From positions 1 to 21,635 of IMG/VR virus record IMGVR_UViG_3300033149_000056: a stretch of DNA of 21,635 nt; one strand, written 5' to 3'. The notes beneath the pieces were generated by a model. That model saw only the letters and a program-made list of their open reading frames with translations. It was not told the origin of the DNA and ran no database searches. Below are positions 1,261-17,800 of this stretch, one piece after another. Within the stretch, counting starts at the first letter, position 1. The number at the start of each line of letters is the position of its first letter. Made by a program: the position numbers and the translations under genes. Source of the DNA: a virus.

Positions 1261-2801
1261 AAAAAACAATAGATATTACGGTTGACAATAAAGATGCTAT
1301 AAAGGGCATTAATCAAATCAACGATAAATTAGGGGATATTGATGTTAATAGTAAAGATGCTGCCGATGGCGTAAAGGGAATTGCTAGAAGTTTTAAGGGA
1401 TTAGGAACTGCAATCAAGGCTGCTGGTATAGGTTTAGTAATTGGAGCTTTAGCTAAGTTGCAAGAAATATTTATGCAGAACCAACAAGCTGCTAATTTCT
1501 TTAACACCGCTTTTGAAGCTGTGAGTATAGCGTTTAATGATTTTGTTAATTTCGTTGTAAACAATGCAGGGTCAGTAATTGATTTTTTCAAAGGTATATT
1601 TAACGACCCGTTACAAGCTGTAAAAGATTTTGGAAAGGCTATACAGGATAATATTGTAGAAAGGTTTAATAGTTTCTTAGATACTCTTGGATTTTTAGCA
1701 AGTGCTGTTAAAAAGGTATTTAGTGGAGATTTTGCTGGTGCTTTAGATGATGTTAAAAATGCAGGAAAAGAAAGTCTTGATGTTTTAACTGGTGTAAATG
1801 ATACGTTTGAAAAAGGAACTGAACTTGTAGAAAAAACCGTTAAAGCGGTTACTAATTATGCTAAAGAAACTATAAAAGCAGCAGAAGCCAATACGGAGCT
1901 AAACAGACAAGCTGAAATAGGTATAGCAAAAAATAGGTTGTTATTAGAACAATACGATAGACAAGCCGAGTTACAAAGACAAATAAGAGATGATGAAAGT
2001 AAAACAATAGACGAGAGAATAGCAGCTAATGAAAGATTAGGCGAATTATTAGCAGAGCAAGAAAGATTAATGTTAGCTAATGCGGATGCACAGGTTCAAG
2101 CTGCCGAAGCTCAATTCTTAAAATTAGAAAATGATGAGAATGAAATAGCATTATTAGAGGCTAGAGCCGAAAAAGAAGGTGTATTGGCTCAAATTGCTGG
2201 TTTGCGTTCAGAACAATTAACTAATATTAATTCATTAGAAAGAGAAAGACAGGATTTAATAGATGAAAATCTTGAAAAAGAAACAGAGGCAAAACAAAAG
2301 GAAATAGACCTTGCAAACGCTGTAAAAGATGCAAAGATAGGTATTGCAAAAAATACACTAAAATTAGTAAGCGAAGTTGCAGGGGAAGGCAGTAAAATAG
2401 GAAAAGGAGTTGCATTGGCACAAGCTACAATAAGTGGAATAGAGGGTGTGCAAAACGCATACACAACTGCTCAAGGCTCTCCGATAACAGCTTTATTCCC
2501 TGCCTATCCTATTGTACAGGCTGGTTTGGCAGCAGCGTTTTCTTCTTTGCAAATCAAAAAAATAGCTTCAACAAATCCATCAAAAGGAACATCGGCTAGT
2601 GGAGGTGGAAGCGTTGGTGGTGGAGGTGGAGTAACACCAGCAGCTCCAAGTTTCAATGTTATTGGTGCAACGGGAACAAGTCAATTAGCTGATGCAATAG
2701 GTGGTCAAACACAAGAACCAGTTAAAGCCTATGTAGTATCGAATGACGTTACCTCCGCACAATCATTAGATAGAAATATTGTTGAGGAAGCATCTATATA
2801 A
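1251..2801 (+). CDS. Tape-measure-like tail protein
   Basis: The protein has 516 residues. The N-terminus (MAIEKTIDITVDNKDAIKGI) reads as the usual opening of tape-measure proteins. A hydrophobic Gly/Ala/Ile-rich stretch follows at about residues 50-70, then a long charged helical region at about 190-350 rich in Glu, Arg, Leu and Ala and probably coiled coil. Near residues 445-465 there is a Gly-rich linker, and the C-terminus has AYVVSNDVTSAQSLDRNIVE, which I recall from Bacteroidota phage tape measures. Such proteins set tail length and pass into the host membrane at infection. At ~500 residues it would imply a short siphovirus tail. An internal virion protein of a short-tailed phage is the main alternative. 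The start overlaps the upstream small gene. Confidence 0.75.
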   Translation: MAIEKTIDITVDNKDAIKGINQINDKLGDIDVNSKDAADGVKGIARSFKGLGTAIKAAGIGLVIGALAKLQEIFMQNQQAANFFNTAFEAVSIAFNDFVNFVVNNAGSVIDFFKGIFNDPLQAVKDFGKAIQDNIVERFNSFLDTLGFLASAVKKVFSGDFAGALDDVKNAGKESLDVLTGVNDTFEKGTELVEKTVKAVTNYAKETIKAAEANTELNRQAEIGIAKNRLLLEQYDRQAELQRQIRDDESKTIDERIAANERLGELLAEQERLMLANADAQVQAAEAQFLKLENDENEIALLEARAEKEGVLAQIAGLRSEQLTNINSLERERQDLIDENLEKETEAKQKEIDLANAVKDAKIGIAKNTLKLVSEVAGEGSKIGKGVALAQATISGIEGVQNAYTTAQGSPITALFPAYPIVQAGLAAAFSSLQIKKIASTNPSKGTSASGGGSVGGGGGVTPAAPSFNVIGATGTSQLADAIGGQTQEPVKAYVVSNDVTSAQSLDRNIVEEASI

Positions 2802-2836
2802 AATACAAAATATTTAAAAACTAGTTATATATTATT
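2802..2836 (+). promoter_or_regulatory. Late two-block element, copy A (candidate promoter of the protease gene)
   Basis: AATACAAAAT lies 35 to 26 bases before the ATG at 2837, and TTATATATTA lies 12 to 3 bases before it. Copies B (before 4608) and C (before 6906) have the same blocks at identical distances, while the ~13 bases between differ. It begins directly after the tape-measure stop. It lacks a host TAnnTTTG box. Promoter function is inferred. Confidence 0.5.
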
Positions 2837-3883
2837 ATGAGAATAGTCGAACTAATATTAGACGAAGAACAAGAAATAGGGATAGAAGCAATTAGCGTTG
2901 TAGAAAGCCCAGCGATAGAGGAAGATTTTATTGCACTTAAAACACAAGAGTTTAAACTTGCAGAGGTTGACAAAGAGAAAAGAATCCTTATGGGTGCTTT
3001 ACTTATACCAAACAAACCCATATATAGACGTAATGGCGAAGATGAGTATTATATATATTTCTCAAAAGATACTGTCTTAAAAGCCTCTCAAATGTATTTG
3101 ATGCAAGGTAAACAAAACAACTCAACATTAGAACACCAATACGACATTAACGGACTTAGCCTTGTAGAATCTTGGATTGTAGAAGATAAGGTACACGACA
3201 AGTCTGTAAAGTATGGAATGGATTTACCAGTTGGTACTTGGATGGGTACGGTTAAGGTAAACAATGAAACTATATGGAATGAGTTTGTTAAGACGGGTAA
3301 GGTTAAAGGTTTTTCAATAGAAGGTTACTTCGCTGATAAAATGGAACGTCCTAAGGAAAAAATAAATGATTTTAGTTCAGACCAACTATTAAAAGAAATA
3401 GACCAAGACGAGGCTGAATATTTACTTAGTGAAGTTAGGGCAATTATCAAAAACGATAAACGTGTAAAGGGTGGTAAGAAAATGATATTAGAGAGCTACA
3501 CCGATTACCCTGATGCGGTTAAAAACAATGCTAAGCGTGGATTAGAGCTTAACAAGAAGGTAGATAATAAATGTGCTACACAAGTTGGTAAAGTTCGTGC
3601 AACACAACTAGCACAAGGGAAACCAATTAGCGTAGAAACAATAAAACGTATGTATTCTTATTTGTCAAGAGCAGAGGAATATTACGATGAAAGCGATACA
3701 AAGGCTTGTGGTACTATTTCTTATTTACTATGGGGTGGAAAAGCAGCTAAACGTTGGGCTGAAAGTAAATTAAAAGAATTAGACTTAATAGACCTTAAAG
3801 CACCTTGCCAAGCAGGTTACGAGCAATACGGTATGAAAATGAAAAACGGAAAACTAGTACCTAACTGTATTCCTATAAAATAA
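2837..3883 (+). CDS. XkdF-type prohead maturation protease with extra C-terminal domain
   Basis: The protein has 348 residues. Residues ~1-180 match the XkdF / Peptidase_S78_2 prohead protease family: the opening AISVVESPAIEEDFIALK, then LIPNKPIYR, a YFSKDTV segment, a probable catalytic His100 in STLEHQYD, and a probable nucleophile Ser160 in KGFSIEGYF. This enzyme cleaves scaffold and capsid precursors inside the procapsid. Residues ~216-320 are a second domain (YTDYPDAVKNNAKRGLEL ... YLLWGGKAAKRWAESKLKEL) that I recall attached to phage head proteins, without a known function. The C-terminus is a two-cysteine tail (GMKMKNGKLVPNCIPIK). Scaffold and capsid genes follow closely, as expected. 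Its ATG is preceded by late element A. Confidence 0.85.
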   Translation: MRIVELILDEEQEIGIEAISVVESPAIEEDFIALKTQEFKLAEVDKEKRILMGALLIPNKPIYRRNGEDEYYIYFSKDTVLKASQMYLMQGKQNNSTLEHQYDINGLSLVESWIVEDKVHDKSVKYGMDLPVGTWMGTVKVNNETIWNEFVKTGKVKGFSIEGYFADKMERPKEKINDFSSDQLLKEIDQDEAEYLLSEVRAIIKNDKRVKGGKKMILESYTDYPDAVKNNAKRGLELNKKVDNKCATQVGKVRATQLAQGKPISVETIKRMYSYLSRAEEYYDESDTKACGTISYLLWGGKAAKRWAESKLKELDLIDLKAPCQAGYEQYGMKMKNGKLVPNCIPIK

Positions 3884-4029
3884 TGAAAAAGCTATTTAGA
3901 TTTATTACGCCAAGTAGAACAAGCCCTAAAGGTGGTCGTAGAGGTTGCTTATGTAAAGACGATACGTATAAAATAAAGTGTTGTGATGGAAGTTTACACG
4001 CACAGGGAGTAGGAAAAACATCTAATTAA
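3883..4029 (+). CDS. 48-residue CxC...CC mini-protein
   Basis: The gene overlaps the protease stop by one base (TAATG). The protein is basic, with a hydrophobic start (MKKLFRFITP) and four cysteines in GCLCKDDTYKIKCCDGS. The pattern CxC-x8-CC followed by a conserved-looking HAQGVGK is one I recall from small proteins of flavobacterial phages. The cysteine spacing could hold a metal ion or form disulfides in the virion. Its place inside the head operon suggests a structural or assembly role, but the function is unknown. Confidence 0.7.
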   Translation: MKKLFRFITPSRTSPKGGRRGCLCKDDTYKIKCCDGSLHAQGVGKTSN

Positions 4030-4043
4030 TTAAATATATAAAA

Positions 4044-4571
4044 ATGAGAAATTACAAAAAAGCTTTAAAGCATATTAATCAGTTTAATGTAAAGTTTAAT
4101 AAAACAGAACTAACAACACAAAAAGTTGAGTTAGGAATTATTGATGACTTAAACAATGTTCTACAACAATCAGACACAATTATAAAAGAATTAAAAGATA
4201 ATGAAAATATTGTTGCAAGAAATCAAAAACTACTTAAAGAAAGAGAAAAAAATCAATCTAAACTTATCACTAATTCAGATAAATTCAGAAAAGAGTTTTT
4301 TGATTTAAGAGATAAGTTGGAAAGTGCAAAACAAAAAAGCGAAAGAGCAGACAAAGAACTTGATACAAACACAAAGGGCATTAAAGAGGTTCAAAAAAAT
4401 ATTGATAAATTAAATAAAAAAATATCTCCACAAATAAAACAAGCCAAGAAAAACATTTCAACTTTTGATAAACTTATTGCACAAGCAGAAAAAACAGCAC
4501 AAGAATTAGGTGTAAAAATTCCTACTGCTTCTTTTTCTAAAATGAAAGATAGATTGCGTAAATTTATTTAA
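4044..4571 (+). CDS. Coiled-coil protein in the head operon, function unknown
   Basis: The protein has 175 residues, is Lys- and Glu-rich, and is nearly all helical by composition. Long heptad-like stretches run from about residue 45 to 155. There are no cysteines, membrane segments or catalytic motifs. The C-terminus (KMKDRLRKFI) is basic. It lies between the prohead protease and the acidic scaffold-like gene, so an assembly or internal head role is plausible. It could be a second scaffold component, but I cannot name its family. Its ATG lies 14 bases after the upstream stop in an A/T-only leader. Confidence 0.7.
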   Translation: MRNYKKALKHINQFNVKFNKTELTTQKVELGIIDDLNNVLQQSDTIIKELKDNENIVARNQKLLKEREKNQSKLITNSDKFRKEFFDLRDKLESAKQKSERADKELDTNTKGIKEVQKNIDKLNKKISPQIKQAKKNISTFDKLIAQAEKTAQELGVKIPTASFSKMKDRLRKFI

Positions 4572-4572
4572 A

Positions 4573-4607
4573 AATGCAAAATTAATTTTTAACACTTATA
4601 TATTAAT
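4573..4607 (+). promoter_or_regulatory. Late two-block element, copy B (candidate promoter of the scaffold-like gene)
   Basis: AATGCAAAAT begins exactly 35 bases before the ATG at 4608, and TTATATATTA again ends three bases before it. Compared with copy A the upstream block has one change (A to G) and the TTATATATTA block none. It fills almost the whole 36-base gap after the coiled-coil gene. Confidence 0.5.
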
Positions 4608-5243
4608 ATGAACACGAACGATATGATTAGTAAAATCAAAGATGTTCTTAATCTTAGCGAGGAAGTTAAGCTTGAGCAACAGAAGTTAGAAAACGGAACT
4701 GTATTAGAAGCAGATGCGTTTGAAAGTGGCAACGAAGTTTTTATCGTTACCGAAGATGAGAAAGTAGCTGTACCAGTTGGAGAGTATGAACTCGAAGATG
4801 GTCGTTTACTTGTAGTAGCCGAAGAGGGTCTTATTTCAGAAATTAAAGAAGCAGGGGAAGAAGTAGAAGAAGAAACACCTGCCGAAGAAGAAGAAGTAGA
4901 AGCATCAGAAGATGTAGCACTTGAAGAGGAAGAAGAACTTGGATATGCTACTAAAGAGGAACTAGCAGAGGTAAAAGAAATGATTGAGGAAATCAAAGCA
5001 ATGCTAGAACCAAAAGAAGATTTAAGTGCTGATGAACTCGGTAACTTAATGACAGAGGAATTAGCTAAACACGAAAGAACAGAGCTTAGCGAAGTGCCAC
5101 AAGAGGTACAAGCGGAACTTAACGAACCAGCTGCCGAGCCAATTCAAGCTAATCCAGAATCAAAACAAAACCTATCTAAATTCAATATCTCACAAAACAG
5201 AAGAATGAGTACATTGGATAGAGTAATGGCAAAATTCAATTAA
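4608..5243 (+). CDS. Acidic scaffold-like head protein
   Basis: The protein has 211 residues. Residues ~27-80 form a compact, probably beta-rich domain (LENGTVLEADAF, EVFIVTEDEKVAVPVGEYEL) of a kind I recall in phage head scaffold proteins. A very acidic segment at ~80-112 is dominated by Glu, followed by a helix at ~115-135 and a short basic end (RRMSTLDRVMAKFN). A charged, helical body with a basic C-terminal capsid-binding tail is typical of scaffolding proteins, and the gene stands between the protease and the major capsid gene. A decoration protein is a less likely alternative. It is preceded by late element B. Confidence 0.7.
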   Translation: MNTNDMISKIKDVLNLSEEVKLEQQKLENGTVLEADAFESGNEVFIVTEDEKVAVPVGEYELEDGRLLVVAEEGLISEIKEAGEEVEEETPAEEEEVEASEDVALEEEEELGYATKEELAEVKEMIEEIKAMLEPKEDLSADELGNLMTEELAKHERTELSEVPQEVQAELNEPAAEPIQANPESKQNLSKFNISQNRRMSTLDRVMAKFN

Positions 5244-5270
5244 TTAATAAACAACTAAAAACCAAATAAA

Positions 5271-6203
5271 ATGAGTGTATCAATCACATCAACTTATGCA
5301 GGAGAATTTAGTGGCAAGTACATTGCTGCTGCATTGTTATCTGCTGACACATTAGACAAAGGCTTAATTACAGTTATGCCTAACATCAAGTTCAAGTCTG
5401 TTATCAAAAAGGCTTCTACTGATGACATCGTAAAAGATGCTACTTGCGATTTTCAAACTGACCAAGGAACTTTAACTCTTACAGAGAAAATCCTTCAACC
5501 AGAAGAATTTCAAGTAAATCTTGACATTTGCAAGAAAGACCTTCATTCTGACTGGGAAGCTGCTCAAATGGGATATTCTGCATTTGACAACCTACCTCCT
5601 AACTTTTCTGATTTCGTATTGGCTCACGTTGCTGCTAAAGTAGCTGACCGTACAGAAAGAAACATATGGAGTGGTTCTACTGTAACTTCTGGTCAATTTG
5701 ACGGTTTCGCTACATTGTTAGCTGCTGATGGAGACTTACCTGCTGGACAAGATATTACTGGAACTGCTGTAACAGCTGCAAACGTAGTTGACGAATTAGG
5801 GGATGTTGTAGATGCTATTCCTACTGCCGTTTATGGTTCAGAGGATTTAATTATCTATGCTGCTTCTAACGTTATTCGTGCTTATACTCGTGCTTTAGGA
5901 GGATTCCAATCAGGAGGACAAGGTGCTAACGGTTACGAAAACAAAGGAAACAACCAATCATTAGGAAACCTTTTCTTTGATGGTATTCCAGTTGTTCCTG
6001 CTCGTGGTGCTGCTGACGATGTTATCATCGCTGCTGAAAAATCTAACTTATTCTTCGGTACTGGTCTTTTATCTGACCAAAACGAAGTAAGAGTTATTGA
6101 TATGGCTGAAACTGACGGAAGTCAAAATGTACGTGTAGTAATGAGATTTACTTCTGGTGTACAGTACGCTCAAGTTACTGACATCGTTTACAGACACGTA
6201 TAA
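5271..6203 (+). CDS. Major capsid protein
   Basis: The protein has 310 residues and the size, composition and position expected for a HK97-fold major capsid protein. It shows a central segment with DLHSDWEAAQMGYSAFDNLP, a helix around VADRTERNIWSG, a strand-rich P-domain-like part around EDLIIYAASNVIRAYTRAL, and an ending with FDGIPVVPARGAADDVIIAA and VRVVMRFTSGVQYAQVTDIVYRHV. Codon use looks selected for high expression: alanine is encoded mostly by GCT, unlike the GCA-rich neighbours. The gene follows the scaffold-like gene and ends 22 bases before a strong terminator. Confidence 0.88.
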   Translation: MSVSITSTYAGEFSGKYIAAALLSADTLDKGLITVMPNIKFKSVIKKASTDDIVKDATCDFQTDQGTLTLTEKILQPEEFQVNLDICKKDLHSDWEAAQMGYSAFDNLPPNFSDFVLAHVAAKVADRTERNIWSGSTVTSGQFDGFATLLAADGDLPAGQDITGTAVTAANVVDELGDVVDAIPTAVYGSEDLIIYAASNVIRAYTRALGGFQSGGQGANGYENKGNNQSLGNLFFDGIPVVPARGAADDVIIAAEKSNLFFGTGLLSDQNEVRVIDMAETDGSQNVRVVMRFTSGVQYAQVTDIVYRHV

Positions 6204-6225
6204 TAAATAACTAATCAATTTTAAG

Positions 6226-6257
6226 AAGGGGTGGGGAAATTTGCCCTACCCTTTTTT
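6226..6257 (+). terminator. Rho-independent terminator behind the capsid gene
   Basis: AAGGGGTGGGG (6226-6236) pairs with CCCTACCCTTT (6244-6254), giving 11 base pairs of which two are G-T. The loop has seven bases and a run of six T follows. In such A+T-rich DNA this G-rich stem is conspicuous. Confidence 0.85.
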
Positions 6258-6278
6258 ATTTAAAAAAACTATATAACT

Positions 6279-6806
6279 ATGGCTTGTTCATTAACTACTG
6301 GTAGAAAAGTGCCTTGCAAATCTGCGGCAGGTGGTATAAAAACCATTTACTTTGCTGATTATGGAACACTTGGAGATGCTACCATTGCAGCAGGGGAAAT
6401 TACCGCTTTAAGTGGTTCTCCTGAATGGTTTCAATTTGATGTAAAAGGAAACTCATCTTTAGAAACCGCAATCAACTCATCTCGTGAAAACGGTACTACA
6501 TTTTATGAAAGTACTTTAAATTTAACTTTGACATTCCAAGACAAAGCAACACAAGAAGAATTAAAACTAATTGCTCACGCTAGACCTCATATCGCTGTTG
6601 AAGATTACAACGGAAACTATTTCCTTATGGGATTAGAAAACGGTGCTGACGTAAATGGAGGTAGTATTACTACTGGTGCTGCTATGGGAGACTTGACTGG
6701 ATATACAATCACAGCCGTTGCACAAGAAACTGCACCACCTTATTTTGTTACTGGTTCAGTTATTACTGCTGATGCTTCTGCTTCACAAATCGACCCAACT
6801 GCTTAA
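6279..6806 (+). CDS. Probable major tail (tube) protein
   Basis: The protein has 175 residues. It starts with MACSLTTGRKVPCKSAAGGI and contains SSLETAINSSRENGTTFYES and an ending around AVEDYNGNYFLMGLENGADV and TGAAMGDLTGYTIT. From memory this matches a family of abundant virion proteins in Bacteroidota phages, most likely the tail tube: beta-rich, about the right size, lying just after the capsid gene. GCT and ACT codon preference resembles the capsid gene and fits high expression. Own terminators stand before and after it. A head decoration protein is the alternative. The ATG lies 21 bases after the T run of the upstream terminator, so it is expressed by read-through or by a very close promoter. 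Confidence 0.6.
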   Translation: MACSLTTGRKVPCKSAAGGIKTIYFADYGTLGDATIAAGEITALSGSPEWFQFDVKGNSSLETAINSSRENGTTFYESTLNLTLTFQDKATQEELKLIAHARPHIAVEDYNGNYFLMGLENGADVNGGSITTGAAMGDLTGYTITAVAQETAPPYFVTGSVITADASASQIDPTA

Positions 6807-6829
6807 TTTAACTAAAGGGTTTTAAAATT

Positions 6830-6860
6830 AGGGGTTATCTTAACGGATAGCCCTTTTTTT
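6830..6860 (+). terminator. Rho-independent terminator behind the tail-tube gene
   Basis: AGGGGTTATC (6830-6839) pairs with GATAGCCCTT (6846-6855) around a six-base loop, with two G-T pairs, and the T run extends to 6860. Late element C starts only ten bases later, so the downstream gene seems to need its own promoter. Confidence 0.82.
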
Positions 6861-6870
6861 ATGCTTATAC

Positions 6871-6905
6871 AATACAAAATAATTTGTTTTTGTTTATATA
6901 TTAAT
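6871..6905 (+). promoter_or_regulatory. Late two-block element, copy C (candidate promoter after a terminator)
   Basis: AATACAAAAT begins 35 bases before the ATG at 6906, and TTATATATTA ends three bases before it, as in copies A and B. This copy sits directly behind a terminator, which is the best argument that the element starts transcription. Confidence 0.6.
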
Positions 6906-7274
6906 ATGCAGATATTAAATACAAGCGGTACTTATACACTAAGGGTTATTCCTAGAAAATTCGACATTACGAGTGGTAAGATAAAACTCAACAACGATAG
7001 AAACGCTGATAGTTACTCTACAACAGCCCCCTCTAGTATTTCAATAGATGGTAATTATTTAAAGTTAGACTTTTCACTAAGCCCAACTAACCAACTAATT
7101 GAAGGGGAATTTTATAAACTTGAGGTTTGGGATAGTCAAAATAAAGTTAATTATATGGACACTATTTTTTGTACAGACCAAGATATTAATCAATCTGATA
7201 ACGAATACTATAACATAAATGAAAATCAATACATTCCAAACAATCAGAATGATAATGATTACATAATAATATAA
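6906..7274 (+). CDS. Small structural protein before the portal gene, function unknown
   Basis: The protein has 122 residues starting MQILNTSGTYTLRVIPRKFD. An in-frame ATG at 6861 exists but lies right at the terminator T run and upstream of late element C, so I prefer 6906. It looks beta-rich (YLKLDFSLSP, EFYKLEVWDSQNKVNYMDTI), then has a conserved-looking FCTDQDI and a very Asn-rich acidic tail ending in DNDYIII. I recall similar proteins in flavobacterial phages next to head and tail genes, but no function. Position between the tail-tube and portal genes suggests a virion or assembly protein. The gap to the portal gene is two bases. Confidence 0.7.
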   Translation: MQILNTSGTYTLRVIPRKFDITSGKIKLNNDRNADSYSTTAPSSISIDGNYLKLDFSLSPTNQLIEGEFYKLEVWDSQNKVNYMDTIFCTDQDINQSDNEYYNINENQYIPNNQNDNDYIII

Positions 7275-7276
7275 AT

Positions 7277-9094
7277 ATGAACGATTTAAGAATAGTAAAT
7301 TTAAGCACTTATACAACACCTGATATTGTTGAGAAATCAAACAAAGATTGGGTGGCTTATGGTAGTGATAACAACTACTTTCAATATCTTATAGACCGTT
7401 ACAATGGTAGCCCAACAAATAACGCTATTATAAACGGTGTTAGCGAGATGATTTACGGAAAAGGGTTAGATGCATTAAACTCTAATAAAAAGCCCGAGCA
7501 ATACGCTAAAATGATTTCTTTGTTTCATAAAGATTGTGTAAGAAAATTATGTTACGACCTAAAATTAATGGGGCAATGTTCAATGCAAGTTATTTATTCT
7601 AAGGATAGAAAAACAATTGCACAAGTTGAGCATATACCAGTAGAGAATTTAAGAGCTGAAAAGTGTAACGAAAAAGGAAAGATTGAGGCTTATTACTATT
7701 CAGATAATTGGAGTAAAGTTAAGAATGTTAAAGATTGCACTAGAATACCTGCTTTTGGTTGTTCTAATGAATCAATAGAAATAGTATATGTAAAACCATA
7801 TAGAGCAGGATATAAGTATTATTCAAGTCCTGATTATGCAGGTGGTTTACAATATAGTGAACTAGAAGAGGAAATATCAAACTACCACTTAAATAATATA
7901 CTAAACGGATTAGCTCCGTCAATGCTTATCAACTTTAACAATGGTACTCCAAATGCAGAGGAACGCCAAATGTTAGAAAACCGTATATATTCCAAGTTTT
8001 CGGGAAGTAGCAACGCAGGTAAATTCATACTAGCGTTTAACGATAACCCTGAAAGTGCTGCAACTATTGAGCCAATACAGTTAAGTGATGCACATAACCA
8101 ATACCAATTTTTATCTGACGAAAGTTCTAAAAAAATAATGGTAGCACATAGAGTTGTTAGCCCAATGCTTTTAGGAATTAAAGATAATAGCGGATTAGGA
8201 AATAATGCTGACGAACTAAAAACAGCATCTATACTTATGGATAACACTGTTATTAGACCATTTCAGACACTTTTAATAGATGCATTTGATAGTATTTTAT
8301 CTTATAATGGTATATCATTAAAACTTTATTTTAAGACACTACAACCCCTTGAATTTACTGATTTATCTAATGTAGAGGATGAGGAAACTAAAGAAGAGGA
8401 AACTGGTGTAAAATTAAGCCAAGATTTACCCGATGAGCTAGGGAGTGATATTGCAGATGCTTTAATTGATTTAGGGCAAGATGAAGAAGAACTACTAAAA
8501 GAATATGAAGTAGTAGATGAAAGCGAAGTTAATTACGAACTAGACGATGAGTTAGACGGTGTAATAAACGACCTAAACGAAGAAACTAAAAAAGATGAGA
8601 CGGTACTATCTAAAATATGGAATTTTGTTAGTACTGGTACAGCTAGACCTTATTCAAGAAGTAAACAAGACGGTAAGTCTAAACAAGAAAGCCAAAAGGG
8701 TGTTGAATTTCTAGTACGTTATATGTATGCACCACAAAGAACAAAAGCTACTTCAAGACAGTTTTGTTCTAAAATGGTAAGTGCCAAAAAGGTATATCGT
8801 AAAGAGGACATTGTGGCTATGAGTGATAAAGTAGTTAATGAAGGTTTTGGCAAAGGTGGTTCAAACACTTATAGTATATGGCTCTACAAAGGTGGTGCTA
8901 GATGCAATCATAAATGGTTTAGAAAAACATACCAAATAAAAGACGGTAAACGTAGTGAAATAACAAGCGGTCAAGCTAAAAGCAAAGGGTTTAAAGCACC
9001 TAAAAATGCTCAAAAAGTACCAGTTGCGCCAAAGGATATGAAGTATAAAGGTTATACTGCTGAATACTGGAATAAAATGAAATTCAAAAATTAA
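7277..9094 (+). CDS. Portal protein with acidic linker and extra C-terminal domain
   Basis: The protein has 605 residues. Residues ~1-360 look like a phage portal: an N-terminal TTPDIVEKSNKDWVAYGSDN segment, YLIDRYNGSPTNNAIINGVS, a helical core, and an ending around SPMLLGIKDNSGLGNNADEL. Portals form the ring through which DNA enters and leaves the head. A strongly acidic linker at ~366-445 leads to a second domain at ~476-555 (FLVRYMYAP, SRQFCSKMVSAKKVYRKEDI, TYSIWLYKGGARCNHKWFRK). I recall this domain attached to head proteins of other Bacteroidota phages. Its Cys and His residues could bind metal. Its function is unknown. The basic end (KDMKYKGYTAEYWNKMKFKN) is distinct too. The portal lying downstream of the capsid gene is unusual. 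Confidence 0.75.
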   Translation: MNDLRIVNLSTYTTPDIVEKSNKDWVAYGSDNNYFQYLIDRYNGSPTNNAIINGVSEMIYGKGLDALNSNKKPEQYAKMISLFHKDCVRKLCYDLKLMGQCSMQVIYSKDRKTIAQVEHIPVENLRAEKCNEKGKIEAYYYSDNWSKVKNVKDCTRIPAFGCSNESIEIVYVKPYRAGYKYYSSPDYAGGLQYSELEEEISNYHLNNILNGLAPSMLINFNNGTPNAEERQMLENRIYSKFSGSSNAGKFILAFNDNPESAATIEPIQLSDAHNQYQFLSDESSKKIMVAHRVVSPMLLGIKDNSGLGNNADELKTASILMDNTVIRPFQTLLIDAFDSILSYNGISLKLYFKTLQPLEFTDLSNVEDEETKEEETGVKLSQDLPDELGSDIADALIDLGQDEEELLKEYEVVDESEVNYELDDELDGVINDLNEETKKDETVLSKIWNFVSTGTARPYSRSKQDGKSKQESQKGVEFLVRYMYAPQRTKATSRQFCSKMVSAKKVYRKEDIVAMSDKVVNEGFGKGGSNTYSIWLYKGGARCNHKWFRKTYQIKDGKRSEITSGQAKSKGFKAPKNAQKVPVAPKDMKYKGYTAEYWNKMKFKN

Positions 9095-14634: not shown

Positions 14635-14642
14635 TAACTTTG
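14635..14642 (+). promoter_or_regulatory. Host-type -7 box of the ninG promoter
   Basis: TAACTTTG is a full match to the Bacteroidota -7 consensus TAnnTTTG. A clear -33 TTTG is absent: a TTG at 14620 is too close, and the usual place is a T run. Transcription would start near 14649, about 110 bases before the gene. Confidence 0.5.
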
Positions 14643-16445: not shown

Positions 16446-17312
16446 ATGACAGAGGAACAAACCACACAAAATATGCTAATGGAACTCATAAAAGAAGAGT
16501 GTTCAATTGACACTACCGAAGTTATGGAGTACCCACCAACTGCATTGAGTTTAGGGGAAAAAACAATACAATCAAAAGGAGGGGATATAACCTTCCCAAT
16601 ACCTATTGGAACTTATGGAAACTTTAGCTTCGTACAAGCTCCACATAAAACCAAAAAGACATTTTTTATATCTTTATTATCATCAGTATATTTAAGTGGT
16701 GGTAACAACTTTGGAGGTAAAATGATTGGACATAGAGATGATAAATGCTTAATACATTTTGATACGGAGCAAGGGCATTGGCATAGTCAAAAAGTATTTA
16801 AAAGAGTACAAGATATGTCAGGTATGAAAGACTTTGGTTGTTATCAAACATACGCTTTAAGAACTATTAGCTATAAGCAACGAATGGAGTTTATAGAATA
16901 TATACTAAAAGAAAATGGTGACAAAAATGGTCTTGTTGTTATTGATGGAATTGCTGACTTAGTTTCAGACGTTAATAATTTAGAGGAATCAAACTTATGT
17001 GTGCAAAAAATAATGGAATGGAGCGCAAAATTTAAATGCCATATAGTTACTGTAATACATAGTAATTATGGTAGCGACAAACCAACTGGACATTTAGGTA
17101 GTTTTTTAATGAAAAAAACAGAAACACAAATACAATTAGAAGCTAACACGGTTAATAAGGATTGGATAACAGTGAGTTGTAAAACTTCAAGAGGTTACTC
17201 TTTTGAAACGTTTAGCTTTAGCATAAATGAATATGGACTACCTTTTGTAGTTGGCGAGATATACGACCCATTAGAATATTATGTGCCTAAAAAATTAACA
17301 CCGAATAAATGA
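16446..17312 (+). CDS. RepA/RecA-type ATPase, probably replication helicase or loader
   Basis: The protein has 288 residues and a RecA-like core. The Walker A position is APHKTKKTFF (residues 65-74), with Lys in place of the usual Gly before the catalytic Lys-Thr. Walker B is NGLVVIDGIADL (Asp167). FDTEQGHWHS (105-114) and VTVIHSN (201-207) fit the remaining ATPase motifs. The build resembles RepA-like hexameric helicases (AAA_25) of Bacteroidota mobile elements and phages. It likely acts in phage DNA replication, as helicase or loader. The leader (AAACAAAAGACAAAAC, 16421-16436) resembles the leader before 15318. It overlaps the next gene by four bases. Confidence 0.7.
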   Translation: MTEEQTTQNMLMELIKEECSIDTTEVMEYPPTALSLGEKTIQSKGGDITFPIPIGTYGNFSFVQAPHKTKKTFFISLLSSVYLSGGNNFGGKMIGHRDDKCLIHFDTEQGHWHSQKVFKRVQDMSGMKDFGCYQTYALRTISYKQRMEFIEYILKENGDKNGLVVIDGIADLVSDVNNLEESNLCVQKIMEWSAKFKCHIVTVIHSNYGSDKPTGHLGSFLMKKTETQIQLEANTVNKDWITVSCKTSRGYSFETFSFSINEYGLPFVVGEIYDPLEYYVPKKLTPNK

Positions 17313-17800
17313 AAACACTTTTAGAACTAGCGTATGACAAACACAAAGACTGGATTAGTATCGTAAAATCATTTGGTTGCAATCCTAGTGTGGCAGAGGA
17401 TATAGTGCAGGAGATGTACATACAGTTGCACCTAGATATAAACAAGGGATTGGATTTATCATATAAAAACGATATAAACCATTATTATTGTTATAAGGTT
17501 CTAAGGGGAATTTATTGTAATATATTTAAAAAGGAATCAAAACAAATTAAACTATATTTAGAAGATATAAACGAATTAAAACAAGCGGAGGATTTAGGTA
17601 TTGATGAGGTGGAATACGCTCAACGAAAAGATAAACTTGATGGGGTGCTAGACGATATGTATTGGTATGATAGAAAAATATTTGAAATTGTCGCTAGTGG
17701 TAAATCAATAGCTGCATTAAGTAGGGAAACCAATATAAGCTACTACTCGTTATACAACACATATACAAACGCAAAGAAACATATAAAAAACAAGTTATGA
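17309..17800 (+). CDS. Sigma-factor-like protein (ECF type)
   Basis: The protein has 163 residues, close to the size of small ECF sigma factors. A region-2-like segment lies at about residues 28-70 (SVAEDIVQEMYIQLH, with the DIVQE signature at 31-35; then HYYCYKVLRGIYCNIFKKES). A region-4-like helix-turn-helix fills the last ~33 residues (SIAALSRETNISYYSLYNTY). It lacks obvious extra domains. Such a protein would join host RNA polymerase and direct it to phage promoters. It is the only transcription factor candidate in the window, which makes it the natural reader of the late element found at 2802, 4573 and 6871. A non-sigma DNA-binding protein with the same HTH is the alternative. It overlaps both neighbours by four bases (ATGA). 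Confidence 0.65.
   Translation: MKTLLELAYDKHKDWISIVKSFGCNPSVAEDIVQEMYIQLHLDINKGLDLSYKNDINHYYCYKVLRGIYCNIFKKESKQIKLYLEDINELKQAEDLGIDEVEYAQRKDKLDGVLDDMYWYDRKIFEIVASGKSIAALSRETNISYYSLYNTYTNAKKHIKNKL

Follow-up and report, generated by a model that had tools for sequence, protein, structure and literature searches.

Late genes of marine flavobacterial phages carry a start-codon-anchored two-block element that is very likely a promoter for a phage ECF-like sigma factor

Results

The virus record IMGVR_UViG_3300033149_000056, a 21,635-base fragment from a marine flavobacterial phage that was analyzed at its full length (hereafter the window), contains three copies of a two-block element, AATRCAAAAT-N13-TTATATATTA, whose 3′ end lies 2 nucleotides (nt) ahead of the ATGs at 2837, 4608 and 6906 (Table 1). 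The original prediction, made from the letters of this DNA, had placed the two blocks at fixed positions before these three genes, and all three copies proved to be exact. Scanning the record with up to three mismatches allowed returned 3 matches against 0.12 expected in shuffles, indicating that the element is more than a chance occurrence. As predicted, the search of the whole 21,635-base record gave no fourth copy. A weak partial copy suspected before the gene at 6279 was not borne out, the homologues of that gene having at least 10 mismatches in 20 positions.

Copy A starts immediately 3′ of the stop codon of the preceding gene (gene end, 2801) and copy B two bases past the preceding gene end (4571); these two copies take up whole intergenic gaps of ~35 bases. 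Copy C stands, as had been claimed, behind an intrinsic-terminator-like stem. An in-frame ATG at 6861 leads automatic callers of open reading frames (ORFs) to extend the 6906 gene through copy C; its homologues start at 6906. Copies B and C were kept in the homologues of their genes. The family phrog_24921, which the scaffold-like protein matches weakly, matches the protease as well. The host sigma-A −7 element, TAnnTTTG, is absent from all three copies, in agreement with the prediction that they do not resemble it. A scan for TTGACA-N16-18-TATAAT-like hexamers found 12 sites against 15.8 expected, none of them at the elements.

Table 1. Features of the 21,635-base window that bear on the two-block element
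Feature	Coordinates	Strand	Details
Late promoter copy A (predicted)	2802..2834	+	Block 1 (−35) 2802-2811, block 2 (−10) 2825-2834; exact match; predicted transcript start, A of ATG 2837; element kept in protease-gene homologues
Head maturation protease (XkdF-like), behind copy A	2837..3883	+	Pfam PF14550, E=1.1e-13
Late promoter copy B (predicted)	4573..4605	+	Block 1 4573-4582, block 2 4596-4605, ATG 4608; exact match
Acidic scaffold-like protein, behind copy B	4608..5243	+	ORF; weak match to phrog_24921
Probable major capsid protein	5271..6203	+	By position only; same operon as 4608-5243
Terminator-like stem and T run	6228..6258	+	3′ of gene 5271-6203
Intrinsic-terminator-like stem and T run	6830..6860	+	Stem 6830-6855, just before copy C
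Late promoter copy C (predicted)	6871..6903	+	Block 1 6871-6880, block 2 6894-6903, ATG 6906; exact match
Gene of unknown function, behind copy C	6906..7274	+	Start 6906 kept in 74 homologues
Portal gene, next after 6906-7274	7277..9094	+	phrog_33693, E=2.7e-117
ECF-like sigma factor (predicted), 163 amino acids (aa; Q39, G67, N71), proposed element reader	17309..17800	+	PHROG, Sigma70_r2, AlphaFold2, Foldseek

A pattern scan of viral contigs returned at least 119 stretches with the element. The resulting set of distinct copies was in part ascertained by the motif itself; the counts that follow refer to such copies with a 13-base spacer, among the matches listed. With at most two mismatches, block 2 stops exactly 2 nt short of an ATG in 246 of 247 copies, and that ATG is the start of a long frame. 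The distance from the end of block 2 to the ATG was 2 bases in 146/147 exact, 30/30 one-mismatch and 70/70 two-mismatch copies, and the 13-base spacer was invariant in all 147 exact copies, so that the fixed spacing proposed in the original prediction also holds in relatives. Three groups of homologues make up the downstream genes, apart from a single element before a 4044-type gene; every one of them can be aligned with the window proteins in register. The element is present at the fixed position in homologues of the three genes and missing there from ~20 other gene families.

Because the set was ascertained by motif, the conservation analysis was repeated on loci found only via the 5271 protein, without a motif filter. 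Upstream of the three genes, conservation was again highest in the two blocks, with 1.7-2.0 bits per column against 1.2-1.5 in the spacer and 0.7-0.9 in the upstream flank. When all gene starts were compared in fixed register, likewise without the motif, the highest-ranking pairs of the window were those of the three copies, and further genes emerged in relatives. Three near-identical blocks within 4 kb could still be the product of a recent duplication or of a mobile repeat without function, an explanation that would leave the spacer as conserved as the blocks. Between genes of one genome, however, identity is 77% and 89% in the two blocks, 42% in the spacer (41% predicted by composition) and 30% in the flank. 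Since the spacer is at the composition level, as expected from the claim that the bases between the blocks differ, and the blocks are far above it, the copies are not a simple duplication; moreover, the element is kept across hundreds of contigs. The duplication explanation, refuted by this comparison, was left with next to no probability.

The motif TATATAWNADTATG was found in 27 of 30 large contigs, with few exceptions on a single strand; the backwards control gave none. Relatives have 2-6 element copies each, and the additional genes that bear them are a ParB-like gene, a terminase small subunit gene and, ~7.5 kb upstream of the protease, a late gene that is conserved (functions assigned from sequence by eye). 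It is thus probable that the missing fourth copy lies outside this fragment. The element is restricted to late, packaging, head or tail genes, namely these and the three of the window. Scoring of 43 genomes put the first −10 base 12 nt before the ATG in 137 of 153 cases, 13 nt in 7, 14 nt in 4 and 24 nt in 5, and never less than 12 nt; four of the 13- or 14-nt distances are overlap misreadings and are truly 15-16 nt. All five 24-nt cases concern one gene, which would thereby have a 12-nt leader.

Several individual loci deserve mention. Natural shifts at L272 9438, L286 242 and L282 5146 combine an intact element with an ATG 12 nt (the leader starting with AAG) or 2 nt further on. At L285 24862 and L287 27877 (record coordinates), the element is followed by a leader of 22-27 nt and an 89-aa ORF of the MDNRKNNGG/MDKRKNNGG type. 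At each of its two ends, the 36-kb record G001 has one version of the scaffold and g6906 genes together with the elements (L266 1579/3872 and L267 31752/34046, record coordinates), representing either assembly redundancy or a true duplication. Loci L339 and L342 belong to one 53-kb record in which both the protease and the sigma gene occur twice; it may consist of two phages joined together. A search of bacterial genomes with the capsid region yielded one Bacteroidetes metagenome-assembled genome fragment, with no detectable elements in it.

The original prediction did not link the element to the ORF at 17309-17800, which is probably its reader. Structure prediction points to an extracytoplasmic function (ECF)-like sigma factor, encoded in what appears to be the early (DNA-metabolism) region. 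The protein matches a PHROG sigma factor family (E=1.9e-4), and, of 57 homologues, 21 had the Pfam domain Sigma70_r2 (2.3e-5 at best, 0.028 for the window protein itself). The AlphaFold2 model (predicted local distance difference test score, 84.9) has helical N- and C-terminal domains and a low-confidence linker, corresponding to the ECF (group 4) layout of two helical domains, sigma2 and sigma4, with a linker between them and about 160-200 aa in total (163 aa here). The best Foldseek matches in the PDB were the ECF sigma factors SigH, SigL, sigmaE and SigW, with probabilities of 0.99-1.0 and superposition root mean square deviations of 1.6-1.8 Å for sigma4 and 2.9-3.0 Å for sigma2; no Foldseek match of the window protein reached E 0.001 or better. 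Among solved structures, the sequence profile matched SigR (1h3l) marginally (E 0.53), and this low-scoring hidden Markov model alignment served for residue mapping only. Searches of a cultured-phage collection with the window sigma protein and with the DNA of positions 2700-7300 returned no match. A homologue of the sigma factor was present in 30 of 30 large contigs; some of these had been picked via the sigma factor, yet all contigs picked via the motif or the 5271 protein were also positive. The three large contigs without the window-type motif have a sigma factor only 47-50% identical and a variant element, with CGT or CGA in place of TTA at −12 to −10 and an unchanged register.

The triplet at −12 to −10 was identical for 185 of 193 within-genome pairs of elements before different genes (43 genomes). 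The 8 discordant pairs came from 4 genomes in which automatic parsing picked up an overlapping TTATATA within CGTTATATA, where reading by eye gives CGT; the scaffold element of record G047 (AGT) was left out of the scoring. Four classes, TTA, CTA, CGT and CGA, were found at these positions, and later scans added a fifth, TAT (L438, L450, L452, L453, L456, L457, L463 and L464), which pairs with sigma residues K39/T67/Q71. In the sigma tree, TTA and CTA each form one clade with full support, CGA occurs in two separate lineages, and two separate CGT/CGA splits show the same residue changes. Considering that unrelated sites of one genome change together, a common reader is needed.

Over 89 loci, sigma residue 39 is Q, L or Y when the −10 base is A and K or R when it is T, and residue 67 is G in 54/54 loci with A(−10) and S or T in 35/35 with T(−10). 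Residue 71 is D in 30/30 loci with G(−11), is N, A, Q or S with T(−11), and is Q with the A(−11) of the TAT class. In the low-scoring alignment to 1h3l, columns 67 and 71 align with SigR asparagines, which we take, from the orthology of SigR and SigH, to correspond to N88 and N92 of SigH. In the SigH structure, N88 hydrogen-bonds to T−10 and N92 contacts the −11 pair, the consensus being G−11 T−10 T−9 (PMC6411747). When the CGT-class elements are numbered from the A of the ATG, G falls at −11 and T at −10 and −9, in the register of SigH promoters. The covariation thus suggests that residues 67 and 71, at the presumed N88/N92 positions, track the −10 and −11 bases. Residue 39 alone was rejected as a predictor of the whole triplet, failing for eight TAT-class elements (Q71). 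Of 39 elements at loci from two later scans, 36 had the −10 base that residues 39 and 67 predict; the other three are without a good block 1 and are possibly chance matches. Contigs whose sigma factor has M39 have so far yielded no elements. The element finder gave 122 matches, and none in reversed sequence.

Searching the cultured-phage collection with the portal protein led to the Nonlabens (Persicivirga) phages P12024L and P12024S of the genus Inhavirus (NC_018272 and NC_018271). P12024L, a phage of Nonlabens sp. IMCC12024, is a distant relative (portal 37% identical) that has a protein annotated with Sigma-70 region 2 (gp35) and, like the window, two-block elements in the same start-codon register. 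Seven of its genes, whose starts were independently annotated and which include gp01, gp05, gp08, gp42, gp45 and gp46, have AAAACAA-type blocks followed by CGTTA, with the C at −12 in six and at −11 in one. Its −10 triplet is thus CGT where the window has TTA, and its sigma factor has K39/N67/D71, as expected for CGT. The late elements of gp05, gp08 and gp45 (L512, NC_018272; ~2980-3031, 5365-5412 and 25945-26011) lie back to back with the small minus-strand ORFs gp04, gp07 and gp44, upstream of which TATATTTG/TATATTGC host-type sites are near or overlap the late −35 block. In this arrangement, early and late promoters of P12024L may compete. We found no published report on P12024L promoters in a search that covered few subscription journals.

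Could the element instead be read by a host sigma factor of the TAnnTTTG type, or by another host factor, with the phage sigma factor serving otherwise? The host polymerase is needed for early genes, and TAnnTTTG occurs in the early intergenic gaps at 14635, 15152 and 15283, consistent with transcription of early genes by host sigma. The window as a whole has 17 such sites against 16.5 expected, so that only the placement of these three is suggestive. By contrast, TAnnTTTG is missing from the elements, the −10 triplet tracks the phage sigma factor, including in the two CGT/CGA splits, and the flavobacterial Polaribacter phage P12002L, which has no annotated sigma factor, shows no shared start-codon element. 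A host reader is accordingly very unlikely. A translational or RNA-level signal, such as a binding site for the ribosome or a regulator in the leader, would account for the fixed distance to the start codon, and A at −3 favours initiation in Flavobacterium (PMC6847099). However, RNA folding of the three element sequences was no better than that of shuffles (z 0.24, 0.03 and −0.32), the bases at −10 and −11 covary with sigma residues, the element stays intact even where the ATG is 12 nt or more away, and ordinary genes of the same phages do without it. We consider such a signal highly improbable.

Discussion

The comparisons above establish the element and the rigidity of its geometry, show that it is confined to late genes, and reveal a single −10 triplet in each genome that covaries with sigma residues. 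The element is very likely the late promoter of the phage ECF-like sigma factor, with transcription starting at, or within ~2 nt of, the A of the ATG. In the mechanism that we infer, host core RNA polymerase carrying this sigma factor would read the two blocks as the −35 and −10 elements of late promoters, domain 4 binding AATRCAAAAT and domain 2 melting and reading TTATATATTA. The protease, scaffold/capsid and g6906/portal operons would then be transcribed late, from a start at the ATG or within those ~2 nt, as leaderless or near-leaderless mRNAs, and their translation would initiate without a leader. The original prediction had read the blocks as −35 and −10 elements of leaderless genes; the rigid spacing in relatives and the covariation with the sigma factor support this, and the ATG as start site is the part that we infer from geometry. 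In published work, a −10 signal ~12 nt before the start codon serves to identify leaderless genes, and this signal was detected in only 1 of 37 Bacteroidetes/Chlorobi genomes (PMC3160421); the elements place their −10 block within the corresponding ~10-12 nt. That the distance is never below 12 nt is expected if the −10 block sets the start and the ATG may not precede it, and variants with the ATG further down suggest that a zero-length leader is usual and not obligatory.

The same promoter might start transcription a few bases upstream, giving a short leader of ~3-10 nt, with the fixed ATG distance a matter of inherited compactness. Such a promoter would fit the orthologous elements whose ATG is displaced downstream by 1-4 or 12 nt, since they imply function without a strict need for the ATG at +1. 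Nevertheless, five or more unrelated genes have the same distance, which recurs across several sigma clades and also in P12024L, it is never shorter than 12 nt in 153 cases, and ECF numbering (G−11 T−10 T−9) sets +1 on the A of the ATG. A short leader is therefore unlikely.

Several observations weigh against a start-codon promoter read by the phage sigma factor. The ATG of some orthologous elements is displaced downstream by 1-4 nt and that of five by 12 nt, two elements lie 22-27 nt ahead of small ORFs, and block 1 is weak in some copies. Sigma70_r4 was not matched by Pfam in the window protein or in its 57 homologues. Columns 43 and 92 likewise split the −10 classes, and columns 92, 102 and 107 the −11 classes; no more than about five independent changes underlie the correlation between residues and bases. 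The groups of the sigma tree recur in the protease tree, so that the sigma factor and phage history are not fully separable. Finally, Flavobacterium mRNAs are mostly leadered (87% with more than 10 nt; mean leader, 33 nt; PMC6847099), and leaderless late operons would thus be unusual for the host group.

It is probable, with somewhat less confidence than for the promoter itself, that in a widespread group of flavobacterial phages the −10 specificity switched at least four times (CGT, CGA, CTA, TTA and TAT) through a few sigma residues (39, 67 and 71), all late promoters being rewritten together while the start-codon position was kept and most late operons remained leaderless, in a phylum with few leaderless genes. 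If true, this is a natural experiment in the joint change of a transcription factor and all of its binding sites, for which five promoter classes, few candidate residues and hundreds of contigs provide the material. As Bacteroidetes lack Shine-Dalgarno sites and have few leaderless genes, the predicted leaderless late mRNAs of their phages may start translation by a route other than that of the host. The element also supplies a promoter rule for annotating a common marine phage group, and cultured P12024L, with its seven elements and sigma factor, makes the model directly testable.

Late sigma factors of phages and leaderless phage genes are each already known, and the addition made here is a phage sigma factor combined with its covariation with the promoter; a search that covered few subscription journals found neither this combination nor this promoter in print. 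In T4 (gp55 / TATAAATA) and SPO1 (gp28, gp33-34), a phage-made sigma factor turns the host polymerase to late genes, as proposed here. Unlike the system proposed for the window, these are not known to be of the ECF type or to be located at start codons, and T4 late promoters, which are not known to have a −35 block, need the sliding clamp. Late phiKZ mRNAs and the lambda cI mRNA from PRM are leaderless, with transcription starting at the start codon as proposed here; phiKZ uses its own multisubunit polymerase and lambda PRM the host sigma70. The TAnnTTTG (−7) promoter of Bacteroidetes belongs to the same bacterial group and differs in its sequence, its weak −33 element and its mean leader of 33 nt (PMC6847099). 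The promoters of M. tuberculosis SigH have a −35 element, GGAAYA, and a 17-bp spacer unlike the AATRCAAAAT of the phage, the −10 block of the window clade is AT-rich unlike theirs, and SigH is a bacterial stress sigma factor that is not phage-borne. By contrast, the phage elements resemble them in the predicted two-domain sigma factor, in the rigid spacing and in a −10 block probably read at −11/−10/−9, and G−11 T−10 T−9 of SigH stands in the same register as the CGT-class phage elements (PMC6411747).

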